Of a stretch of DNA of 64,000 bases, positions 43,066 to 54,077 are shown piece by piece. Source of the stretch: Myxococcus eversor (lineage in GTDB: Bacteria; Myxococcota; Myxococcia; Myxococcales; Myxococcaceae). Both the position numbers and the translations under genes were made by a program. A model generated the notes under the pieces. That model was not told the origin of the DNA and made no database searches. It saw nothing but the letters and a program-made list of their open reading frames with translations. Position 1 is the stretch's first letter; every line of letters starts with the position of its first letter. The DNA lies in NCBI RefSeq assembly GCF_010894455.1, contig NZ_JAAIXY010000033.1, positions 1 to 64,000 of the forward strand, read 5' to 3'.

Positions 43066-45369
43066 TCACGTCCGGGCCTCCAGCTCCAGCTGCCCCTGTG
43101 TGCCCACGCGCAACATCACCTGGCGGTGCGGAGTCCCCGCATGCGTCGCGAGCCACTGCGCCAGCGGGACGATGGCGTGCTGCTCCACCGCGCGCTTCAG
43201 CGGGCGCGCACCGTAGCGCGCGTCGAAGCCGGCCTTCGCGAGGAAGTCCACCACGTCCTCGCCGAAGCTCACCTTCACCCCGCGCCGTGAGAGCCCCTCG
43301 CGGCCCAGCGCCGCTTCCAGGGTGCGTCGCGCGAGCGTCCTGATGACGTCCGGCGCGAGGGCGCGGTAGGGCACCACCTGGTCCAGCCGGTTGAGCAGCT
43401 CCGGCCGGAAGAAGGCCGTGGCCGCGCCCAGGTAGTGCGCTTCCATGTCCCGAGGCGTGTCCCCGCCAAAGCCCAGCGAGCGTGACGCGGACTCCGCGCC
43501 CAGGTTGCTGGTGAGCAGCACCACCGTGTTCCGGAAGCTGACGGTGCGGCCCGTGCCGTCCGTCAGCCGTCCTTCACCGAGGACCTGGAGCAGCAGGTCA
43601 TGCACGCCCGCGTCCGCCTTCTCCACCTCGTCCAGCAGCACCACGCCGAAGGGCTGCTCCCGCACGCGTCGCGCGAGCCCACCCTGCTGACCACCTCCTT
43701 CGCCCACCAGCCGCCCAGCGCTGCCGGGCGCGGCGTACTCCGCCATGTCGAAGCGGGCCAGACGGGCGACGTCGCCGAAGAGGTACTCCGCCAGCGCGAG
43801 CGCCGACTCCGTCTTGCCCACGCCCGTGGGCCCCAGGAGCAGGAATGCCCCCAGTGGCCGTGAAGGGTCCGCGAGTCCCGTCTTCAGGGTGACGACGAGG
43901 TTGCGCAAGAGCAGCGTGGCCTCGTCCTGGCCGACGATGCGCTCCCGGAAGCGGCGCAGCAGCGCGTCCGGGTCCAGGCGAATCGAGGAGTCCACCAGCT
44001 CCCTCGGGTAGCCGGTGCGCGTGCAGAACGCGGAGGTCACCGCGCCCGCGTCCACTTCCGTCCCCGTCTCGGCCTGCGCCGTCGCGGCGCGGAGCAGCGA
44101 CACCGCGCCACCCGGAGGAGGGCCTTCACCGAAGCGCTCCGTCAGCTCCGCCGCGCGCTCCAGGGAGGCGGGGGTGAAGCGCACCTTGCGAGCCTTCGCG
44201 ACGCGCTGGGAGGCCTGCTGCACCGCGGACCGCGCCTTCTCGGGCACCAGCGGCTCCACGACGACATGCCGCAGTGCCTGGAGGAAGGCGCCATGGGTTC
44301 GCTCCGCGCGAGCGACGTCCTCTGGCGTGGCCTCCAGCACCAGCGCGACTTCGCCCCCTTCCAGCGCGGGCAGCAGGTGCCGCGCGACGTCCAGGCCCGT
44401 GTCGCCGCCGCCCAGGGAGAGCAGCTCGGAGAGGCTGTCCAGGTGGAGCACCGCGCGCCGCACCCGCAGCTCGTTCACCATCAACTGCACGCGCTTCTGC
44501 CACTGCCCCAGATAGCGCATGCCGGCCATGATGCGGCCGCCCGAGGTGCTGAAGACCTCCAGCCCCTGGAGCGAACTCCCCGACGCGGAGGACTCCGCCC
44601 GGTGCACCAGCTCGTGCACCAGAGACGTCTTGCCCACGGAGGGCGGACCCACGAGCAGCACGCTCGCGCGCGCCCGCGCCGTGACGGCCTCCGCCAGCAG
44701 GCCGACCTCCGCGTCACGCTCCCATGCACGCTCCAAGAGTCCCGCACGGGCCTCTTCGTTGAGGCAGCGACTCGCCTCGGCGAGACCGGGAGGAGGGGGA
44801 GGGCGGCGCACCGGCCCTCGGGGCTCCTCGATGACACGCGCGCGGGTCGCCTCACGGGACTTCATCGTCACGGAGAGGGTCTCGACGGTCTCCTCGCCCA
44901 GGTAGGCCAGCGAGTGCAGGCGCTCCAGCGGCGCCATGTAGAGCTCGTGGCGGACCAGTTCCTCCACGTAGGCCTCCAGGTCCGTGAGGTCCTGCAGCGA
45001 GCCCTCCACGTCCACGCGAGGAATCCAGACGTGCACGGGCCCCTTCGCCGCGCCCTTCTTGCTGGTCCGCTCCGTCTTCCCACGTCCCCCGCGCGTCACC
45101 ACGGTGAGCTTGAGGGGCACGGGCAACAGCCGCCCGTGCTGCACCGCGCGCACGGTGAGGTTCATCTTCTTCGTGCGCAGGTCCGGCCAGTGCGTCTGTG
45201 CATCCTTCAGCTCTCCTCGCTTGAGCAGCCGTCCCAGGACCTCCGCCACGTCCAGTCGCGCGGTCGTCAGGTCCTTGGCGAACGAGGCCAGATGCGGGTG
45301 GGTCAACACGTGCGCGGCCACTCCCACGCCAGGGTAGTTCCGCACGAACAGATGGAAGTTCTTGTCCAT
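43066..45369 (-). CDS. Double AAA+ ATPase, ClpA/ClpB-like (third gene of triple cluster)
   Basis: This 767-residue protein is the shortest of three related ATPases. Its N-terminal region (about 1-90) is like those of the other two. The first ATPase module has Walker A GPPSVGKT near residue 240, but its Walker B reads VLHLDSLSELL (about 306), where DE is expected. The second module is complete: Walker A GPTGVGKTE near 513, Walker B LLDEVEKA near 577, sensor-1 TSNLG, arginine finger FFRPELLNRLDQ and sensor-2 YGARPLKRA. It ends soon after, without the C-terminal extension of its partners. Clp proteins are ring-shaped unfoldases. It starts 1 bp after the stop of the second gene, so it is translationally coupled. 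Confidence 0.9.
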   Translation of the reverse strand: MDKNFHLFVRNYPGVGVAAHVLTHPHLASFAKDLTTARLDVAEVLGRLLKRGELKDAQTHWPDLRTKKMNLTVRAVQHGRLLPVPLKLTVVTRGGRGKTERTSKKGAAKGPVHVWIPRVDVEGSLQDLTDLEAYVEELVRHELYMAPLERLHSLAYLGEETVETLSVTMKSREATRARVIEEPRGPVRRPPPPPGLAEASRCLNEEARAGLLERAWERDAEVGLLAEAVTARARASVLLVGPPSVGKTSLVHELVHRAESSASGSSLQGLEVFSTSGGRIMAGMRYLGQWQKRVQLMVNELRVRRAVLHLDSLSELLSLGGGDTGLDVARHLLPALEGGEVALVLEATPEDVARAERTHGAFLQALRHVVVEPLVPEKARSAVQQASQRVAKARKVRFTPASLERAAELTERFGEGPPPGGAVSLLRAATAQAETGTEVDAGAVTSAFCTRTGYPRELVDSSIRLDPDALLRRFRERIVGQDEATLLLRNLVVTLKTGLADPSRPLGAFLLLGPTGVGKTESALALAEYLFGDVARLARFDMAEYAAPGSAGRLVGEGGGQQGGLARRVREQPFGVVLLDEVEKADAGVHDLLLQVLGEGRLTDGTGRTVSFRNTVVLLTSNLGAESASRSLGFGGDTPRDMEAHYLGAATAFFRPELLNRLDQVVPYRALAPDVIRTLARRTLEAALGREGLSRRGVKVSFGEDVVDFLAKAGFDARYGARPLKRAVEQHAIVPLAQWLATHAGTPHRQVMLRVGTQGQLELEART

Positions 45370-45370
45370 G

Positions 45371-48300
45371 TCAGTTCCCTCCTCGCGCCGGTTCGCGCAG
45401 CACCCGCGCCGCCCAGGCCACGGACTCGGAAGGGGGCCTCCCGCTCGCCAGATGAAGGATGTTCTCCAGCCCGCCCTCCACGACGACGTGGCCCTGGGGC
45501 GACTCGGGCGCCTGGCCCGCGCGACGCGCCTCCCGCTCCGCCAGCTTCACCGCGTCGCGCGTCGCCACCGTGCGGGACACGTCCGTCATCAAGTCCGGTG
45601 CCTCCGCGAGCAACTCCACGCGGACCAACGCGGGCCGCGTGTCCAGGTGCACCAGCGCGTAGCCCTCCAGCCGCGCGAGCACCTCCGACAAGCCGAACGC
45701 CGAGAGGCTCACCACCTGTCGTCGCACCCGCACTCCCGCGGGGCGCGTCGTGCCCGGCGCGGCCCACGCGATGCCGCCGTCCGGCTCCACGCGCTCCTCG
45801 TGGATGGCCACGCGTCCCAGTCCCTGGGGAATCGCCTTCACCACGGCCTCCAATGCGGCGACAGGCGAGTCCGCGAGCCCTTCCACCAGCAGCGCGCGCA
45901 CCTCCATCCCGCGGTCCCGGGTGGCGAGCTGATGCGCGAGCCACTCCACCTCGTCGCGCAGGCTCACCACCTTGGGACGACAGCGACGCAGTCGTTCCTC
46001 GGGGGACACCGGCAACGGCGCCGAGCCATAGACGGTCCGGGGGCGCAGTCCGCCCCGTCCCCGGTTGCGCCTCCAGTTGTCCTGGTACCCGACGCGCTCC
46101 TCCTTGCCCGCGGGCTCCTCCGTCTCCATGAAGTCGCGGTCCGCCAGCTCGTTCTCGCGGATGTCCAGGGCCTCCGCCGCCAGGCGCTCCAATCGCTCGC
46201 GAAGCTCCACCGCCTCGGGGCCACCGCGCGGAGTCTCGCCTTCGGAGGGGCGCGGCTCGGCCGCCGCCAGTGCCTCCAGCCGCGCGGTCACCTCCTCCAG
46301 CATCCGAGCCACGCCGGGGAGTGTCCACGCGGTGGGGTCCTGTTCACGCGTCCACGCGGGCTCTCGCATGAGCAGCTCCACCGACAGCCCCATGTCCTCG
46401 CCCCGGCGGAACAGCTCCACGCGGGCCAGGTCCTCGCCGCCGCGCCGCACCAGGTGATGGGCCAGGGGCACGGTGAGGCGTCGCTCCAGCGCGCGCTTCA
46501 GGGGACGTGCGCCGTAGCGCGGGTCGTACGCCTGCTCCACCAGCAGGTCGAGCAACGCGGACTCCACCTCCACCAGCACGTTGCCCCGGCGGATGCCCCG
46601 CCGCGACAGGAGCGACTCCAGGGCGTGCTCCACGACGACGCGCAGCGCGGCGGGCGTGAGCGAGCGGAAGGGCACCACGCGGTCCAGGCGGTTGAAGAAC
46701 TCCGGACGGAAGAAGGCCCGCACCGAGGAGAGGTAGTGCGCCTCCGCGCCTTCGGGAGCGCGGTGGAAGCCCGTGCGGGCGGCGGCCTCGCGCACGCCCA
46801 GGTTGGACGTGAGCACCACCACCGCCTGCCGCGCGTCCACGGTGCGGCCCGCGCCGTCCGTCAGTCGCCCCTCGCCGAGGAACTGGAGGAGCGCGTCGAA
46901 GATGCGCGGGTGCGCCTTCTCCACCTCGTCGAACAGCACCACGCAGAACGGCTGGGTGCGCAGCGCCGTCGTCAGCTCGCCATCCGGCGCGCCGGGCAGA
47001 CCCAAGAGGCGGGTGATGCTGGAGGCGGAGACGAACTCCGACATGTCGAAGCGGACCATCCGCTCCTCGCTGCCGAAGAGGGTGCGCGCCAGCGCCTTGG
47101 CCGTCTCCGTCTTGCCCACGCCGGTGGGCCCCACGAAGAGGTAGGTGGCCAGCGGTTTGTCCGGAGGCTGCAGCGAGCGCTGGAGCGTGAGGATGGCGTC
47201 CACCACGGCGGCGACGGCCTCCGGCTGTCCGGCCACCTGCGCGGTCAGCTCGCGCTCCAGCACCTCCCGGGGCTTCGGCGGCGCGCTGCCCAGCACGAAG
47301 TCCGGCAGGCCCGTCTGCGCGCGCATCGCGGCGGTGACGTCCTCCTCCGTGAAGCGGCGCACGTTCTGGTCCACCGTGCCCGGCCTCGCGAGCACCCGGC
47401 GCAAGAGCCGCACCGCCTTGCCCGGGAAGGACTCGTGCGCGACGAAGCGCTCCTGAAGGTCCAGCAGGGTCTCCAGCGCCAGGGGGGACAGGCGCACCGC
47501 GGGCCCGCCTTCGCCCGAGCCCTCCAGCTCCCGCAGCGTCCCCAGCAGGGCCGGCAGCGTCGTGCGCGGCTCCAGCGCGGGTACGTGCACCACGCGGAAC
47601 AGCGAGGCGAGCGTGGGCGCCTCCTCGCGCACCCGCTCGAAGCGCTCGGGCGTGGACTCGGCCAGCACGGTCAGCTCGCCGCGCGCCATGTGGGGCTCCA
47701 GGAACTGCGCGACGTTGGTGCGCTCGCTGGAGGTGCGGCCCGCGTAGACGAGCGAGGCCAGGTCGTCCACGTAGAGCAGGTCGCCCACCTCCACCAGCTC
47801 CTTCACCACGCCCCGCGCGCGAGCCTCCCACTGGCCCACGTACATCATCCCCGCGATGAACTGATTGCCGTCCACGCGCCACACGTCCCGGCGCTGTCCC
47901 GCGGCGTCCTGGCGCGCGGTGAGCCGGCGCACCACCTCGTGCACCAGCGCCGTCTTGCCGGAGCCGGGAGGGCCCACCAGGACGATGGCCGCGCCCTCGC
48001 GGCCTTCCAGTGCGTCCACCACCTCGCGCACCAGCGCCTCGCGGCCGTAGCAGTGCTCCAGTCCGTCATCTCGCGCGGCGTGGCTCAGGTTGCGCGCCAC
48101 CTCCCGCAGCTCGGTGAGCGTGAGGCGTCGGCGGTTGCGGCGGGCCTCGCGCTGCTCCGGCGTCTCCGGCGGGGGGCTCTTCGTCTCCTTCCCCGTGGTG
48201 CGGCGGCGCCTGGGTGGCTTGGGCGGCTTGGGCGGCGTCCGGGGGAGGATGGAGGGCGGATAGGCATCCACCTCCAGCAGCTCCAGTCGCTCGCGGCCCT

Positions 48301-48754
48301 GCGCCCAGAAGCCCTCCAGGTTCGTCAGCCCGTGCTCCAGGCACCACGCTCCCAGCCTGCGCCCGAGCGCGAGGGGCAGGGCCTCCGTGTCGGGAATCGC
48401 GAAGCGGGCCTCCGCGAGCCGCGTGGGCGTCACCACCCAGAAGTCATCCCGAGGCCACTTCTCCAGCAGCACGGCCATGCGGCCCTTGAGCACGACGCGC
48501 AGGCCCTTCTCGCGGTCTCTCACGTCGATGTCTACCTTCACGTGCTTGAGCGCCAGGTGGGGCGGCAGCTGGTAGCTGGCCACGCGCGACGGGTGCTCCT
48601 TCTCGAAGCGCTCCATGACGGCGAGCGCCAGGTCGTCCCTCAATGAGGACAGGCTGGGACCCACGCGGTGGATTCGAGGCCAGAAGGCGGGGACCCACGC
48701 CTCGACGAGACGGCCGCCCAGGGGCGCGACGACCAGGGGGAGTTTGAGTTCCAT
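45371..48754 (-). CDS. Double AAA+ ATPase, ClpA/ClpB-like, with long C-terminal extension (second gene)
   Basis: The start at 48754 is given by GGAGGAGGA upstream; the 1127-residue frame could extend to 48955 but would overlap the gene before. After an N-terminal region and a Pro/Arg-rich linker (about 185-225), module 1 has Walker A GPPGSGKT near 260 and Walker B LLYVDDLASLV near 324 (DD for DE). Module 2 is complete: GPTGVGKTE near 540, VVLFDEVEKA near 605, TSNLG, FFRPEFFNRLD and YGARPLKRA. About 370 further residues include a helical stretch and a segment (VVSLSAFGLSEVLARLEGYALVH) that weakly recalls a release-factor PCRF domain. It begins 2 bp after the first gene's stop. Confidence 0.9.
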   Translation of the reverse strand: MELKLPLVVAPLGGRLVEAWVPAFWPRIHRVGPSLSSLRDDLALAVMERFEKEHPSRVASYQLPPHLALKHVKVDIDVRDREKGLRVVLKGRMAVLLEKWPRDDFWVVTPTRLAEARFAIPDTEALPLALGRRLGAWCLEHGLTNLEGFWAQGRERLELLEVDAYPPSILPRTPPKPPKPPRRRRTTGKETKSPPPETPEQREARRNRRRLTLTELREVARNLSHAARDDGLEHCYGREALVREVVDALEGREGAAIVLVGPPGSGKTALVHEVVRRLTARQDAAGQRRDVWRVDGNQFIAGMMYVGQWEARARGVVKELVEVGDLLYVDDLASLVYAGRTSSERTNVAQFLEPHMARGELTVLAESTPERFERVREEAPTLASLFRVVHVPALEPRTTLPALLGTLRELEGSGEGGPAVRLSPLALETLLDLQERFVAHESFPGKAVRLLRRVLARPGTVDQNVRRFTEEDVTAAMRAQTGLPDFVLGSAPPKPREVLERELTAQVAGQPEAVAAVVDAILTLQRSLQPPDKPLATYLFVGPTGVGKTETAKALARTLFGSEERMVRFDMSEFVSASSITRLLGLPGAPDGELTTALRTQPFCVVLFDEVEKAHPRIFDALLQFLGEGRLTDGAGRTVDARQAVVVLTSNLGVREAAARTGFHRAPEGAEAHYLSSVRAFFRPEFFNRLDRVVPFRSLTPAALRVVVEHALESLLSRRGIRRGNVLVEVESALLDLLVEQAYDPRYGARPLKRALERRLTVPLAHHLVRRGGEDLARVELFRRGEDMGLSVELLMREPAWTREQDPTAWTLPGVARMLEEVTARLEALAAAEPRPSEGETPRGGPEAVELRERLERLAAEALDIRENELADRDFMETEEPAGKEERVGYQDNWRRNRGRGGLRPRTVYGSAPLPVSPEERLRRCRPKVVSLRDEVEWLAHQLATRDRGMEVRALLVEGLADSPVAALEAVVKAIPQGLGRVAIHEERVEPDGGIAWAAPGTTRPAGVRVRRQVVSLSAFGLSEVLARLEGYALVHLDTRPALVRVELLAEAPDLMTDVSRTVATRDAVKLAEREARRAGQAPESPQGHVVVEGGLENILHLASGRPPSESVAWAARVLREPARGGN

Positions 48755-48756
48755 GG

Positions 48757-51700
48757 TCAGTCCTCCTCCGTCTCGCCGAACACACGCCAGTTCATCCAGG
48801 GCTCCAACAAGGAATCCAACTCCAGGCCTCCGCCGCCGTAGCGCACGCGGGTTCCGGTGCGCATGTCCTCCACCGAGCCGCCCGCGGTGTCCGTCGAGCC
48901 CGGACGGATTCGCCGGACCTCGGTCTTCGGCAGCTGCGCCTCCAGCTTCTCCCACTCGGGCAGCACGTCCCGGCTGCGAGGATTGGCGGTGAAGAGCGCG
49001 CGCACCAGCGCCGCCTGACTGCCCTCCACGAAGCGGTGTACGCCGTGCTCGGCGGAGAGCAGCAACGGGCGCGTCTCGCCGGAGATCTGAATGGCATATG
49101 CCAAGGGCGTGGGCTGGAGGTCCAGCAGCTCATCCACCCTCGGGTAGACCCAATCCGGCGGAGGGGGAATGCGTGGCGCCTTCGCTCCGTCCGCGGGCTT
49201 GGGCGTCCAGAGCAGGGCGCGCTGGAAGGCGAGCGAGTAGCGGTTGCACCAGCGCTCATAGATTTTCGCCAGGAAACAGAGCTGCGGCCACGCGCCACGG
49301 CCAGGCACCAGTATCAGGGTGGCGCCTCGCGAGTAGTGGTAGAGGCTGGAGTAGAGCCGCTCCCTCAAGGGCTGGAACGTGGAACGCAGCGTGGCCACGT
49401 CGCGCGCGAGCGACTCCGCCTGACCCACCGCGCGTGACAGGTGGGCCTCGAAGAGCAGGTCTTCGATGGCCTCCGTCTGCTGCGAGCACTCACGGAAGGC
49501 CTTGTCCAGCTCGCGGGCGTCTCCGGCCTTCCTCGCGGCCTCCTTCGCCAGCGAGCGCTCCTCCCAGTACGAGGCCTGTCGGGACACCTTGTCGAAGACC
49601 GCCAGCTCCCGCCGCAACGCAATCATGGGAGGCGAGCGGCTCCAGCGCTGCACCTCCGCGCGCAGCGTGGCGGCGTCCTCCAGGACCTGTTCGATGGCCT
49701 GCCGTCCCACGCCCTCCGCCGCGCCGCCCACCGCCTCCGCGCGCAACGCAAGCCCGCCGTCTCCAGCCTCCGCGTGCAGCACGACGGGCCCCGTCTTTGG
49801 ATGTGCCGCGAGCCATGCCGCCACCGGCACCACCAGCTCCCTCTCCAGCGCGCGCTTCAGGGGCCGCGCGCCGTAGCGCGGGTCGAAGCCGCGCGCCGAC
49901 AGCCAGTCCAGCGCGGACTCGGAGACGACGAGGCTGGCGTCATGGCGAGACAGCCCGGCTCGCTTCCGGATGGCGTCCACCTCGCGCACCACCAGCTTGC
50001 GCAGCAGCTCCTCGGAGAGCGGCGAGAAGACGACGGTGTCGTCGAGGCGATTGAACAGCTCCGGACGGAAGAATCTCTGCACCTCCGCCAGGTAGTGCGT
50101 GCGCAGCGCGGCGACGTCGGGCACGCCGCCCAGCGAGTCGAAGCCCACGCGCGCGCGCCACGTGTCCGCGCCCAGGTTGCTGGTGAGCACGAGCACGGCG
50201 TTGCGGAAGTCGGTGAAGCGGCCGGACGCGTCGGTGAGGCGCCCCTCGCCGAGCACGCCCAGGAGCGCGTCGTGCACGGCGGGGTGGGCCTTCTCGATTT
50301 CGTCCAGCAGCACCACGCAGAAGGGCTGGCGGCGCACGGCCGCGGAGAGGTAGCCCGGCGTCGCGCCGTCGCCCAAGAGGCGCAGCAGCGCGTCCGGCCC
50401 CGCGTACTCGCCCATGTCCAGGCGCACCATGCGCTCGCGCGAGCCGAAGAGCAGCTCCGCCAGGGCCTTGGACAGCTCCGTCTTGCCCACGCCGGTGGGG
50501 CCCACGAAGAGCAGCACACCCAGCGGCCTGCGCGTGTCGGCGAGCCCCGCCTTGAGGACGGACACCACGGAGGAGACGCGCTCCACCGCGGCCTGCTGTC
50601 CCAGCACGCGCGTGGTGAGGAACGCACGGACCTGGGCCGGCTCCAGTGGCATGTCGTCGCGCAGCAGCGCCTCGGGGATGCCGGACTCGGACGCGAACTG
50701 GCGCACGGCGTCCAGCCGGATGACCCGGGGCTGGGCCGCGTGGGCGCACGTCGCAATCAGCCTGCGGAGGAAGGCCACCGCGTTTCCCACCTGCGCGCCA
50801 TAGGGCAGGAAGCGACGACACAGGAAGCGGCACTCCTCCAGCGCCTCGGGCAGCACCTCCAGGGGCGTGGTGCTCGGAGTGTCCTGGGCCACGCGCGTCA
50901 GGATGCGGGCGAGCGCCTCCGGTGTCGGCTCCTCCACGCGGACGACGGAGAACAAGCGGGCGAAGCTGGCGTTGCGGCGCTCCACCTGGGCCCAGGCCTC
51001 GGGAGTGGCCTCGGCCACCACGGACACCTCGCGGGTGACGAGCAGCGGCAGGAGGAGCTGGGCCACGTTCTGGTCGCTGTGCGCGCTCTTGCCCGCGTCG
51101 AGCAGGTCGATGGCGTGGCCCAGCGAGAGGATGGCGCGGGACTCATTCGCCTCGCGGAAGGACTTCAGCACCTGCTGCTGCCAGTCGCCCCACATGCCCT
51201 CGCCGGCGATGAGGCGACTGCCGTCGACGAAGAAGAAGGGACGGGCCTTCTCGGCGGGAGTGGCGGTGGAGGCCTGGAGCGCCTCCGCGAGCGCATGGAG
51301 GACCGCGGACTTGCCCACGCCCGAGGGGCCCACCAGCACCACGGCCTCCGCGTCCTTCGCGGCCAGCCGGGCTCGCAGCAGCGTCACCAGGGCATCCTGC
51401 TCATAGGCGGGGTCGAGCTGTCCCTCGGTCGCCAGCCGATGCCAGGGCACCGCGATGCGGTCCAGCGTGGGCGTGGGCGGCGGCTTCTCCGGCTTCGCCC
51501 CTGGCTCGCGACGGCGGGAGCGCTTTCGGGGCTCCCACGTGTCTTCGTCGAGCGCGTCCTCGTCTTCCTCATCGATGCTTATCGAGAGGCCCGAGGTGGG
51601 GGGCGGCTCTTCGGGCGCCGCGTCCGGTGGGCGGGGAGGCGGGCGGATATCCAGGTGGAGCTGGCGAGGGGTGAGGGCCGACAGTCGCGTCGGCGTGGCC

Positions 51701-52173
51701 TCCACCTCCAGGTCAATCAGGGCCTCGCCACCGTCCGCGCGCAGGGAGAGGAGCCGCGCATCGGGGAGTCCTTCCAACTGTTCGCGCAGTCGCTCGGCGG
51801 CATCCTCGGGCACCTTCTTGCCCTGGAACCACAGGTGCGTCTCCAGCCGGGGCGCATGCAGTCCGAGATAGGACTGGTGCGTGGGCGCGACGGCGGAGGC
51901 GAAGGTGAGGGGCGCGAGGGTGTTCTCTTCGGTGCCCCAGACGGGAATCGCGTCCAGCTCCAGCGTGTGCAGCGTGCCTCCCGTCGCGGCGATGAACTCA
52001 GGTACGCGACGCGGATGGATGCGGGTGAGCTGGTCATCCAGCGCGAGCGTCAACTCCTCGGTGGCCTTCTCCAAGGTGTCCGCGTGCACCGCGAGATGAG
52101 GCAGGGACAGGGGTGTGAGCGTCACTCGACCGCTGGCGTGACGCTGCACCCAGCACTGGAAGCGAAAGTTCAT
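48757..52173 (-). CDS. Double AAA+ ATPase with release-factor-2-like C-terminal region (first gene)
   Basis: The protein has 1138 residues. After the N-terminal region and an acidic/basic linker (about 195-235), module 1 has Walker A GPSGVGKS near 281, but the Walker B position reads AILSLGHAIDLL, with no acidic pair, so it should bind but not hydrolyse ATP. Module 2 is intact: GPTGVGKTE near 555, VVLLDEIEKAHP near 621, TSNLG, FFRPELFNRLDD and YGARPLKRA. Residues about 833-1138 follow the order of bacterial RF2: helical head, ILVPGRGAW as in IQAGSGGTE, YERWCNR as in YLRWAES, SAEHGVHRF as in TETGVHRL, VEDMRTGTRV as in IKDLRTGVET, then LDSLLEPWM as in LDGSLDQFI. The GGQ catalytic domain and SPF codon-reading loop are missing. 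It leads a three-gene unit with its promoter in the 143-bp gap to the divergent PLP gene. Confidence 0.9.
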   Translation of the reverse strand: MNFRFQCWVQRHASGRVTLTPLSLPHLAVHADTLEKATEELTLALDDQLTRIHPRRVPEFIAATGGTLHTLELDAIPVWGTEENTLAPLTFASAVAPTHQSYLGLHAPRLETHLWFQGKKVPEDAAERLREQLEGLPDARLLSLRADGGEALIDLEVEATPTRLSALTPRQLHLDIRPPPRPPDAAPEEPPPTSGLSISIDEEDEDALDEDTWEPRKRSRRREPGAKPEKPPPTPTLDRIAVPWHRLATEGQLDPAYEQDALVTLLRARLAAKDAEAVVLVGPSGVGKSAVLHALAEALQASTATPAEKARPFFFVDGSRLIAGEGMWGDWQQQVLKSFREANESRAILSLGHAIDLLDAGKSAHSDQNVAQLLLPLLVTREVSVVAEATPEAWAQVERRNASFARLFSVVRVEEPTPEALARILTRVAQDTPSTTPLEVLPEALEECRFLCRRFLPYGAQVGNAVAFLRRLIATCAHAAQPRVIRLDAVRQFASESGIPEALLRDDMPLEPAQVRAFLTTRVLGQQAAVERVSSVVSVLKAGLADTRRPLGVLLFVGPTGVGKTELSKALAELLFGSRERMVRLDMGEYAGPDALLRLLGDGATPGYLSAAVRRQPFCVVLLDEIEKAHPAVHDALLGVLGEGRLTDASGRFTDFRNAVLVLTSNLGADTWRARVGFDSLGGVPDVAALRTHYLAEVQRFFRPELFNRLDDTVVFSPLSEELLRKLVVREVDAIRKRAGLSRHDASLVVSESALDWLSARGFDPRYGARPLKRALERELVVPVAAWLAAHPKTGPVVLHAEAGDGGLALRAEAVGGAAEGVGRQAIEQVLEDAATLRAEVQRWSRSPPMIALRRELAVFDKVSRQASYWEERSLAKEAARKAGDARELDKAFRECSQQTEAIEDLLFEAHLSRAVGQAESLARDVATLRSTFQPLRERLYSSLYHYSRGATLILVPGRGAWPQLCFLAKIYERWCNRYSLAFQRALLWTPKPADGAKAPRIPPPPDWVYPRVDELLDLQPTPLAYAIQISGETRPLLLSAEHGVHRFVEGSQAALVRALFTANPRSRDVLPEWEKLEAQLPKTEVRRIRPGSTDTAGGSVEDMRTGTRVRYGGGGLELDSLLEPWMNWRVFGETEED

Positions 52174-52316
52174 GGAGTGTGCTCAGGCTAACATGGGGCG
52201 GCGCAGGGACGACGAGTGCCGAGCGTGGCTGACGCGCTCCGTCGCGTGCATTGTTCCCCACGCGCTGGACAGTCGGGGAGGTTCGGCGGGATCCTCACTC
52301 CATCGAGAGGTGCGAG

Positions 52317-54077
52317 ATGGAAGACGCCTGTTCGAGGTTGGTCGAATCCGTCAGGAACGCCATCCTCGGGGACGGGCGGCTGCTCCAGGGGCCCTACGGG
52401 CCGCGCCGGCTCACCTACGCGGACCATGCCGCCTCCGGGCGCTCGCTGGGCTTCATCGAGGACTTCATCCGCGAGCACGTCCTCCCGCTCTACGCCAACA
52501 CGCATACGGAGACGTCGGGCACGGGCGCCCAGACGACGCGCTATCGCGAGGACGCGCGGGAGCTCATCCACCGCGCGGTGGGAGGCGGGCCCGACGACGT
52601 CGTCCTCTTCTGCGGCTCCGGTGCGACGGCCGCCATCTGCAAGCTCATCGACATCCTCAACCTGCGCATCCCCGCGGACCTGGATGCGAGGTTCGACTTG
52701 AGCTCGCGCATTCCGCTCGAGCAGCGCCCCGTCGTCTTCGTGGGCCCCTACGAGCACCACAGCAATGACCTGCCCTGGCGCGAGTCCATCGCGGAGGTCA
52801 TCACCATCGACGAGGACGCTGACGGGCGCATCGACCCGGCCCACCTGGAGCGCGAGCTGGTGCGCTATCAGGACCGGCCGCTGCGCATCGGCAGCTTCTC
52901 GGCGGCGAGCAACGTGACGGGCATCCTCAGCGACCAGGAGGAGATCGGCGCGCTCCTGCGTCGGCATGGAGCGCTCTGCTTCTGGGACTTCGCGGCGGCG
53001 GGGCCGTATGTCCACGTCGACATGAACGGGCGGGAGGAGGGCCCCGCGAGGGCGTGCGTGCGCAAGGACGCCGCGTTCCTGTCGCCACACAAGTTCATCG
53101 GCGGGCCGGGCACGACGGGGGTGCTCGTCGTCAAGCGGTGGCTGCTGGGCAATCGCATCCCGACCGTGCCCGGCGGAGGCACCGTGTCGTACGTGAGTGG
53201 CCGCGCGCACGTGTATCAGCTCGACCCCGTGCATCGCGAGGAAGGGGGCACGCCCGCCATCGTCGAATCGATTCGCGCGGGCCTGGTCTTCCAGCTCCGC
53301 GAGGCGGTGGGCGTGGAGGCCATCGACGCGCGGGAGCAGGACTTCTCCCAGCGGGCCCTCGCGCGCTGGGGCGCCAATCCCAACCTGCGCATTCTCGGCA
53401 ACCCGCTGCTCCGGCGTCTGCCCATCTTCAGCTTCCTGGTTCGATACGGGGACGCGTACCTCCACCACAACTTCGTGGTGGCCCTGCTCAACGACTTGTT
53501 CGGCATCCAGGCGCGCGGAGGATGCTCCTGCGCGGGGCCCTATGGCCACCGGTTGCTGGGCATCGACTCCGTCACCAGCCACCGCTTCCAGGACGTCATC
53601 CTGCGAGGCACGGATGGCGTGAAGCCCGGCTGGGTGAGGCTGGGCTTCAACTACTTCCTCTCCGAGACGACCTTCGGCTTCCTGCTGGATGCCGTGGACT
53701 TCGTCGCCCAGGAGGGCTGGAAGCTCCTGCCGCACTACGTGCTCGAGCCCTCCACCGGACAGTGGCGCCACCGCGACCACGCGCGGAGACTGGGACGGCT
53801 GAGCGACGTCACCTACGCGAGCGGCGAGTGCGCCTTCCCGTCTCCGGGGCCCTCCGCGCCGGAGCGGGAGCTGGAGGACTACCTCGCGCGGGCCCATCGC
53901 GTCGTCGAGCAGGCGCTCCACGAGGTGGGCGACAGGACGGTGGAGGACGCTCCGCTCACACCAGAGGCGGAGCGCCTTCGCTGGTTCCCGCTGCCCTCCG
54001 AGGTGCTGGAGGTGCTCCAGCGCGAGCACGCCGGCACGACGTCAGAGGCCCCCTTCCGACTCCAGGGGGCCCCATGA
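52317..54077 (+). CDS. Class V aminotransferase-fold PLP enzyme (cysteine-desulfurase-like)
   Basis: The ATG at 52317 follows GAGAGG; 586 residues. The N-terminus has YADHAASGRSLGFIEDFI and ANTHTETSGTGAQTT, typical of NifS/SufS-fold enzymes. The PLP Lys lies in LSPHKFIGGPG, with CFWDFAAAGPYV as the cofactor-Asp strand. A Cys-rich loop (RGGCSCAGPYG) sits where desulfurases carry their catalytic Cys. The protein is about 150 residues longer than SufS because of a C-terminal extension. Activity could be desulfurase, lyase or epimerase. It is divergent from the AAA+ cluster and not obviously part of it. Confidence 0.85.
   Translation: MEDACSRLVESVRNAILGDGRLLQGPYGPRRLTYADHAASGRSLGFIEDFIREHVLPLYANTHTETSGTGAQTTRYREDARELIHRAVGGGPDDVVLFCGSGATAAICKLIDILNLRIPADLDARFDLSSRIPLEQRPVVFVGPYEHHSNDLPWRESIAEVITIDEDADGRIDPAHLERELVRYQDRPLRIGSFSAASNVTGILSDQEEIGALLRRHGALCFWDFAAAGPYVHVDMNGREEGPARACVRKDAAFLSPHKFIGGPGTTGVLVVKRWLLGNRIPTVPGGGTVSYVSGRAHVYQLDPVHREEGGTPAIVESIRAGLVFQLREAVGVEAIDAREQDFSQRALARWGANPNLRILGNPLLRRLPIFSFLVRYGDAYLHHNFVVALLNDLFGIQARGGCSCAGPYGHRLLGIDSVTSHRFQDVILRGTDGVKPGWVRLGFNYFLSETTFGFLLDAVDFVAQEGWKLLPHYVLEPSTGQWRHRDHARRLGRLSDVTYASGECAFPSPGPSAPERELEDYLARAHRVVEQALHEVGDRTVEDAPLTPEAERLRWFPLPSEVLEVLQREHAGTTSEAPFRLQGAP

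Follow-up and report, generated by a model that had tools for sequence, protein, structure and literature searches.

Results

Genes at the locus

The window analyzed in the present study is a stretch of 64,000 nucleotides from a Myxococcus-like genome of 11.4 Mb, and carries three consecutive genes on the minus strand, each of which encodes a Clp-type ATPase. A1 (48757..52173, minus strand) encodes a double-AAA ATPase of 1138 aa with an RF2-like tail, which matched the families AAA_2 (3e-39) and ClpB_D2-small (7e-14) and was aligned continuously with the ClpA model (226-783). A2 (45371..48754, minus strand) starts 2 nt past the stop of A1 and encodes a second Clp-type ATPase, the tail of which also appears to be RF2-like, and A3 (43066..45369, minus strand) starts 1 nt past the stop of A2 and encodes a third one without a tail. 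The A1-A2-A3 operon showed the same gene order in other genera, with varying flanks, and no translation gene was a conserved operon neighbor in the loci compared across genera. A known defense system is not indicated because PADLOC returned generic AAA matches only. The gene at 52251-54077 on the plus strand, which is divergent to the A1 operon, resembles a class V aminotransferase or cysteine desulfurase by eye, and a gene similar to this neighbor also adjoins the trio at the loci L021 and L063.

The three proteins have in common an N-terminal domain of approximately 170 aa, which was recognized by hhalign and approximately spans 51664..52173 (minus strand) in A1, 48150-48754 in A2, and 44850-45369 in A3. 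The domain of A1 scored 41.7 against that of A2 (null maximum, 21.8) and 47.6 against that of A3 (null maximum, 18.7); since the comparison of A2 with A3 was at noise, the kinship of all three is linked via A1. None of these domains had a Pfam match, and a HicB-like identity, which was an impression by eye, was supported by no tool.

Motor domains

Motor motifs were read from an alignment of A1, A2, A3, and a further protein encoded elsewhere in the same genome, the core Clp-RF2 fusion (939 aa, two AAA modules and an RF2 tail; see below), with ClpB and ClpA from that genome. In all four proteins, D2 (49807..50661, minus strand, in A1, as delimited by this alignment and AAA_2) has intact Walker A, Walker B, sensor 1, arginine finger, and sensor 2 motifs, and its aromatic pore loop, GYVG, is deleted. 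D1 (50674..51468, minus strand, in A1) has a Walker A motif in each of them but lacks both the Walker B glutamate and arginine fingers, with ILSLGHAID in place of ILFIDEIHT and SFARLFS in place of ALERRFQ in A1; in A1, A2, and A3, an aromatic residue persists in the loop of this domain. Based on these motifs, D1 looks hydrolysis-dead, and D2 is apparently the one active ATPase tier. Classical threading through D2 is unlikely due to the deletion of its pore loop. The initial annotation had regarded A1 as an unfoldase; A1 is a Clp-type ATPase with an intact D2, but an unfolding activity is doubtful given the losses in D1 and the D2 pore loop.

Similar to ClpA, ClpC, and ClpB (HSP100 class I), these proteins possess two AAA modules, a D2 small domain, and intact D2 catalytic motifs, and, as in ClpA, there is no M-domain. 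In addition to the motif losses in D1 and the missing D2 pore loop, A1 differs from these chaperones in having an N-terminal domain of its own and an RF2-derived tail. At the position of the ClpP-docking loop, [LIVM]-G-[FL], the residues are VGF, TGF, LGF, or MGF; however, LGF is also found there in two other Clps of the genome, Clp_C36b and Clp_C69, and the site is not diagnostic. The identity of a ClpB disaggregase was rejected (NCBIfam equivalog, 319 bits against a cut-off of 1232), as was that of ClpV of type VI secretion (TIGR03345, 272 bits against a cut-off of 885). The ClpA model aligned in one continuous stretch and the ClpB model in two. A separate Clp-like gene on the same contig, approximately 30 kb from the trio (G000:C51:81785-84307), scored 770 bits to the ClpB model, which is below the cut-off, and might be ClpV.

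Homology of the A1 tail to RF2

The final ~310 residues of A1 are homologous to domains 1 and 2/4 of RF2. The order of RF2 had been read by eye in residues ~833-1138 in the initial annotation, and all of the motifs quoted there were present and aligned with their counterparts when an alignment of the A1 tail with those of 14 homologues was run against a 20-sequence RF2 alignment in hhalign (score 99.6, E 2.9e-13, 171 columns). As controls, 60 RF2 profiles with permuted columns yielded no score above 22.3, and a reversed RF2 profile scored 16.6. After RF2 had been trimmed of its SPF loop and domain 3, a global alignment spanned the entire A1 tail (E 4.7e-20). Paired motifs in A1 and RF2, respectively, were GATLILVPGRG..AW with FMDINAGAGGT..DW, IYERWCNRYSL with MYTRYCETKGW, and LLLSAEHGVHRF with GYLKAEVGVHRLV.

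The part of the tail similar to RF2 domain 1 (49336..49695, minus strand), which was delimited by hhalign, VIA-align, and prfB, comprises a helical head with a conserved Trp. It is followed by a beta-alpha-beta part similar to domain 2 (48985..49323, minus strand; hhalign and residue conservation), from which the SPF loop is deleted and which terminates in AEHGVHRF and the next strand. A segment similar to the RF2 C terminus (48784..48927, minus strand; VEDMRTG...LLEPWM; hhalign) comes last, and domain 3 with GGQ is missing. This segment alone, in which VEDMRTG pairs with VKDLRTG, scored 22.35 in hhalign, against 14.2 or less in 100 permutations. Residues L240, E243, G245, and H247 of the tail were invariant among 15 sequences, and the most conserved residues in the A1 tail, W71, E243, G245, H247, and D304, may merely hold the fold.

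Regarding family models, NCBIfam prfB was the sole one to match the A1 tail (E 2.3e-5; 23.6 bits, which is far below its full-length cut-off). Pfam PCRF reached 13.3 bits on A1 itself (E 0.33, below the cut-off) and 24.5 bits, against a cut-off of 24, on an A1 orthologue from another genus (E 2.6e-5). A single-sequence phmmer search of PDB sequences with the A1 tail returned coiled-coil noise only. In a six-frame search of 195 genomes, the A1-tail profile recovered 41 A1 orthologues; judging from position and ORF length, the remaining matches corresponded to genes for RF2 or RF1 and to the core fusion, besides one further match that was weak and partial.

An AlphaFold model of the A1 tail was built without any release factor sequence, from a shallow alignment of 4 sequences taken from the window and related loci (mean pLDDT 52), and the top 15 Foldseek matches to this model were 15 release-factor chains. 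VIA-align gave a Z of 11.2 between the model and domain 1 of RF2 (chains 7oj0_8 and 8p16_6), in a comparison mainly over domain 1, where unrelated helical bundles score too. We consider the Foldseek ranking of the predicted model to be the stronger evidence of the two.

Parts of RF2 that have been lost

GGQ and the SPF loop, the loss of which had been noted at the outset, were absent from all of the 27 A1 orthologues checked, and PF00472 was absent at the A1-A2-A3 locus. In addition, the alpha-5 tip is altered in A1, in which a shortened PGRG replaces the GAGGT of RF2. As judged from these motifs, the A1 tail is devoid of the elements for peptide release and stop-codon reading. The view in the initial annotation that the part seating a release factor in the A site has been kept without the release activity may be retained in part: the descent from RF2 and the loss of the release parts were borne out, but the codon-contacting parts are gone as well. 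Since the SPF loop and alpha-5 tip, which provide the codon contacts, have been lost, docking at the A site is not deducible from homology alone.

Predicted fold of the A2 tail

The C-terminal ~330 aa of A2 had no sequence match in searches with Pfam, prfB, and hhalign, and the hhalign comparison of this tail with RF2 stayed at the noise level (20.1 and 12.5). The AlphaFold model, which was built from a shallow alignment of 3 sequences (mean pLDDT 64, pTM 0.58), showed a helical part and, after it, the beta-alpha-beta arrangement seen in domain 2 of RF2. RF1 and RF2 occupied the first ten places in Foldseek (best E 1.5e-3), and RF2 was first in VIA-align with a Z of 9.2 (1gqe, rmsd 6.7 A), the rmsd to RF2 ranging from 6.7 to 11.4 A across 173-221 residues. 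The model also superposed on PrfH, a rescue factor for damaged ribosomes (9mq4; Z 8.0, 115 residues, 3.4 A), a value to be read with the caution that a Z near 8 is possible without kinship; in contrast to the A2 tail, which lacks GGQ, PrfH is a stand-alone and catalytically active release factor. Because the A2 tail is at noise by profile, its assignment is derived from the predicted structure, and the evidence for an RF2-like fold at 45596..46321 (minus strand) is good but not conclusive.

Core Clp-RF2 fusion and family history

The core Clp-RF2 fusion (L054:5223-8042, which corresponds to C32:157223-160042 on a genome contig) matched PCRF at 3.2e-14 and prfB at 1.5e-24, and, at the level of these matches, its tail is unmistakably RF2. 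Residues are still found at the position of RF2 domain 3, whereas GGQ was absent from all 28 of the core-fusion tails checked, and there is no SPF loop. This protein was present in most of the genomes tested in the family of the window and in one genome of another family in the same order, and its tail was 69-99% identical between several genera. The core fusion bridges normal RF2 and the strongly reduced tails of A1 and A2. A1 had been taken as a single odd protein in the initial annotation, but this genome encodes at least three Clp proteins with RF2 tails, among them A1 and A2 from one operon (A2 by its predicted fold); neither the core fusion, the tail of A2, nor the change in the alpha-5 tip had been mentioned there.

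In a tree of the AAA cores, A1, A2, A3, and the core fusion were set apart from the classical Clps of this genome (support, 100/100), and the branching order among the four is not settled due to long branches. The simplest reading would be a single fusion event followed by the loss of the tail in A3. A1 was found in all of the 27 genomes sampled in the genus of the window. Diverged A1-like proteins were also observed in two further families of this phylum (L067:3957-7550 in genome G076 and L068:1185-4577 in genome G067), and the trio type is accordingly either ancient or has spread by transfer.

Discussion

The A1 tail resembles RF2 (prfB; TIGR00020, PF03462 and PF00472) in its domain 1, its domain 2/4 scaffold, the order of these parts, and the EHGxHR and DxRTG motifs, and differs from it by lacking the GGQ domain and SPF loop, by an altered alpha-5 tip, and by its location behind a double-AAA motor. 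Considering what has been retained and lost, the most likely function is that the tails dock to the ribosome or a translation factor and that D2 remodels the target using ATP, a proposal for which we see about as much reason to believe as to doubt. We infer that A1, A2, and A3 are three co-translated subunits of one hetero-oligomeric AAA+ assembly, in which the tails of A1 and A2 would retain two portions of RF2, the helical domain 1, which faces the GTPase, and the scaffold of domain 2/4. These tails would most likely be docking modules that set the ring on the ribosome or a translation-factor complex, without a stop codon and without peptide release. The D2 ring would then hydrolyze ATP and remodel the bound target, candidates for which are ribosome complexes that are stalled or idle, bound factors, and nascent chains, with D1 serving as a tier that binds nucleotides without hydrolysis. 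The core fusion, in which more of RF2 has been kept, including a GGQ-less remnant of domain 3, probably performs a general version of this task.

Another hint comes from the orthologues of A1 in a sister clade belonging to another genus (L058:4406-8029 and L059:2853-6635), in which the region corresponding to RF2 domain 2 carries an inserted helical hairpin similar to that of L7/L12. This hairpin matched the C-terminal domain of ribosomal L7/L12 with 29.5 bits in one orthologue (cut-off, 25.9) and more weakly in others. The hairpin of L7/L12 recruits translational GTPases, and hairpins of this type occur in non-ribosomal proteins too. Independently of the RF2 ancestry, the insertion may be taken as a further, albeit only suggestive, sign of a connection with translation. 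Ribosome targeting by the tails may be regarded as likely.

The possibility that the similarity between the A1 tail and RF2 reflects chance or a shared composition may be dismissed as very improbable; the empty phmmer search against the PDB and the PCRF score of A1 below the cut-off are in its favor, but it does not account for the permutation controls in hhalign, the unbiased genome search in which nearly all of the other matches were RF2, RF1, or the core fusion, the orthologue exceeding the PCRF cut-off, or the release factors ranked first by Foldseek. The main rival accepts the homology and, because the codon-contacting parts have been lost, holds that the RF2-derived tail was repurposed and now serves the Clp machine in assembly, in regulation, or as an adaptor, so that the fold remains and the contact with the ribosome does not. 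Such a fate would be consistent with the combined loss of the SPF loop, alpha-5 tip, and GGQ, with the divergence of the A2 tail past sequence recognition, and with a third subunit, A3, that is tailless. It is harder to reconcile with the retention of domain 1, EHGxHR, and DxRTG in A1 orthologues between genera and families, with the hint at translation from the L7/L12-like insertion of one clade, and with the identity of the core-paralogue tail between genera, which is as expected for a constrained binding surface. We, therefore, regard the repurposed tail as unlikely on the present evidence, albeit an explanation to be taken seriously.

Domain 1, the best-conserved part of the tail, is the GTPase-interacting domain in bacterial release factors (PMC6514570), which is in line with a decoy or adaptor that mimics RF2 in order to bind RF3, L7/L12, PrmC, or a rescue factor of the ArfA type instead of the ribosome and thereby controls termination or rescue. 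A pure mimic of domain 1 would not need domain 2/4, however, and the site modified by PrmC, GGQ, is absent; the lack of a conserved translation-gene neighbor also argues against this role, which we consider to be improbable. Docking by the tails for remodeling by D2 remains the reading that we prefer.

The literature searched contained no description of Clp-RF2 fusions, with most subscription papers being outside the reach of this search. The words Clp, PCRF, and myxobacter were absent from a survey of release factors that was built around the peptidyl-hydrolase (GGQ) domain (PMC6514570), and a study on ClpP and ClpX in M. xanthus, in which eight clpA/B/C copies were reported, made no mention of release factors (PMC11423568). 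Dom34/Pelota of archaea and eukaryotes is alike in idea only, as a relative of release factors without catalysis that acts at stalled ribosomes (PMC6514570); its fold is unrelated and no Clp motor is fused to it.

Taken together, we tentatively propose, with somewhat more doubt than belief, that myxobacteria possess a ribosome-directed AAA+ family that arose from a Clp motor fused to a disarmed RF2 and comprises a core protein and a hetero-oligomeric trio, the tails of which dock for the ATP-driven remodeling of stalled or dormant ribosomes. Since Myxococcus is genetically tractable, the genes are genus-wide in the sample, and a paralogue is present in most of the family, this proposal may be examined by gene deletion and ribosome sedimentation. 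These proteins also show that domains of RF2 have been reused after losing their chemistry as well as codon reading. If this proposal is true, these proteins would represent a so far undescribed class of bacterial factors for the rescue or remodeling of ribosomes, and a Clp ring with release-factor docking domains would couple protein remodeling directly to the bacterial ribosome, a link that is otherwise made via tags (tmRNA) or separate factors.
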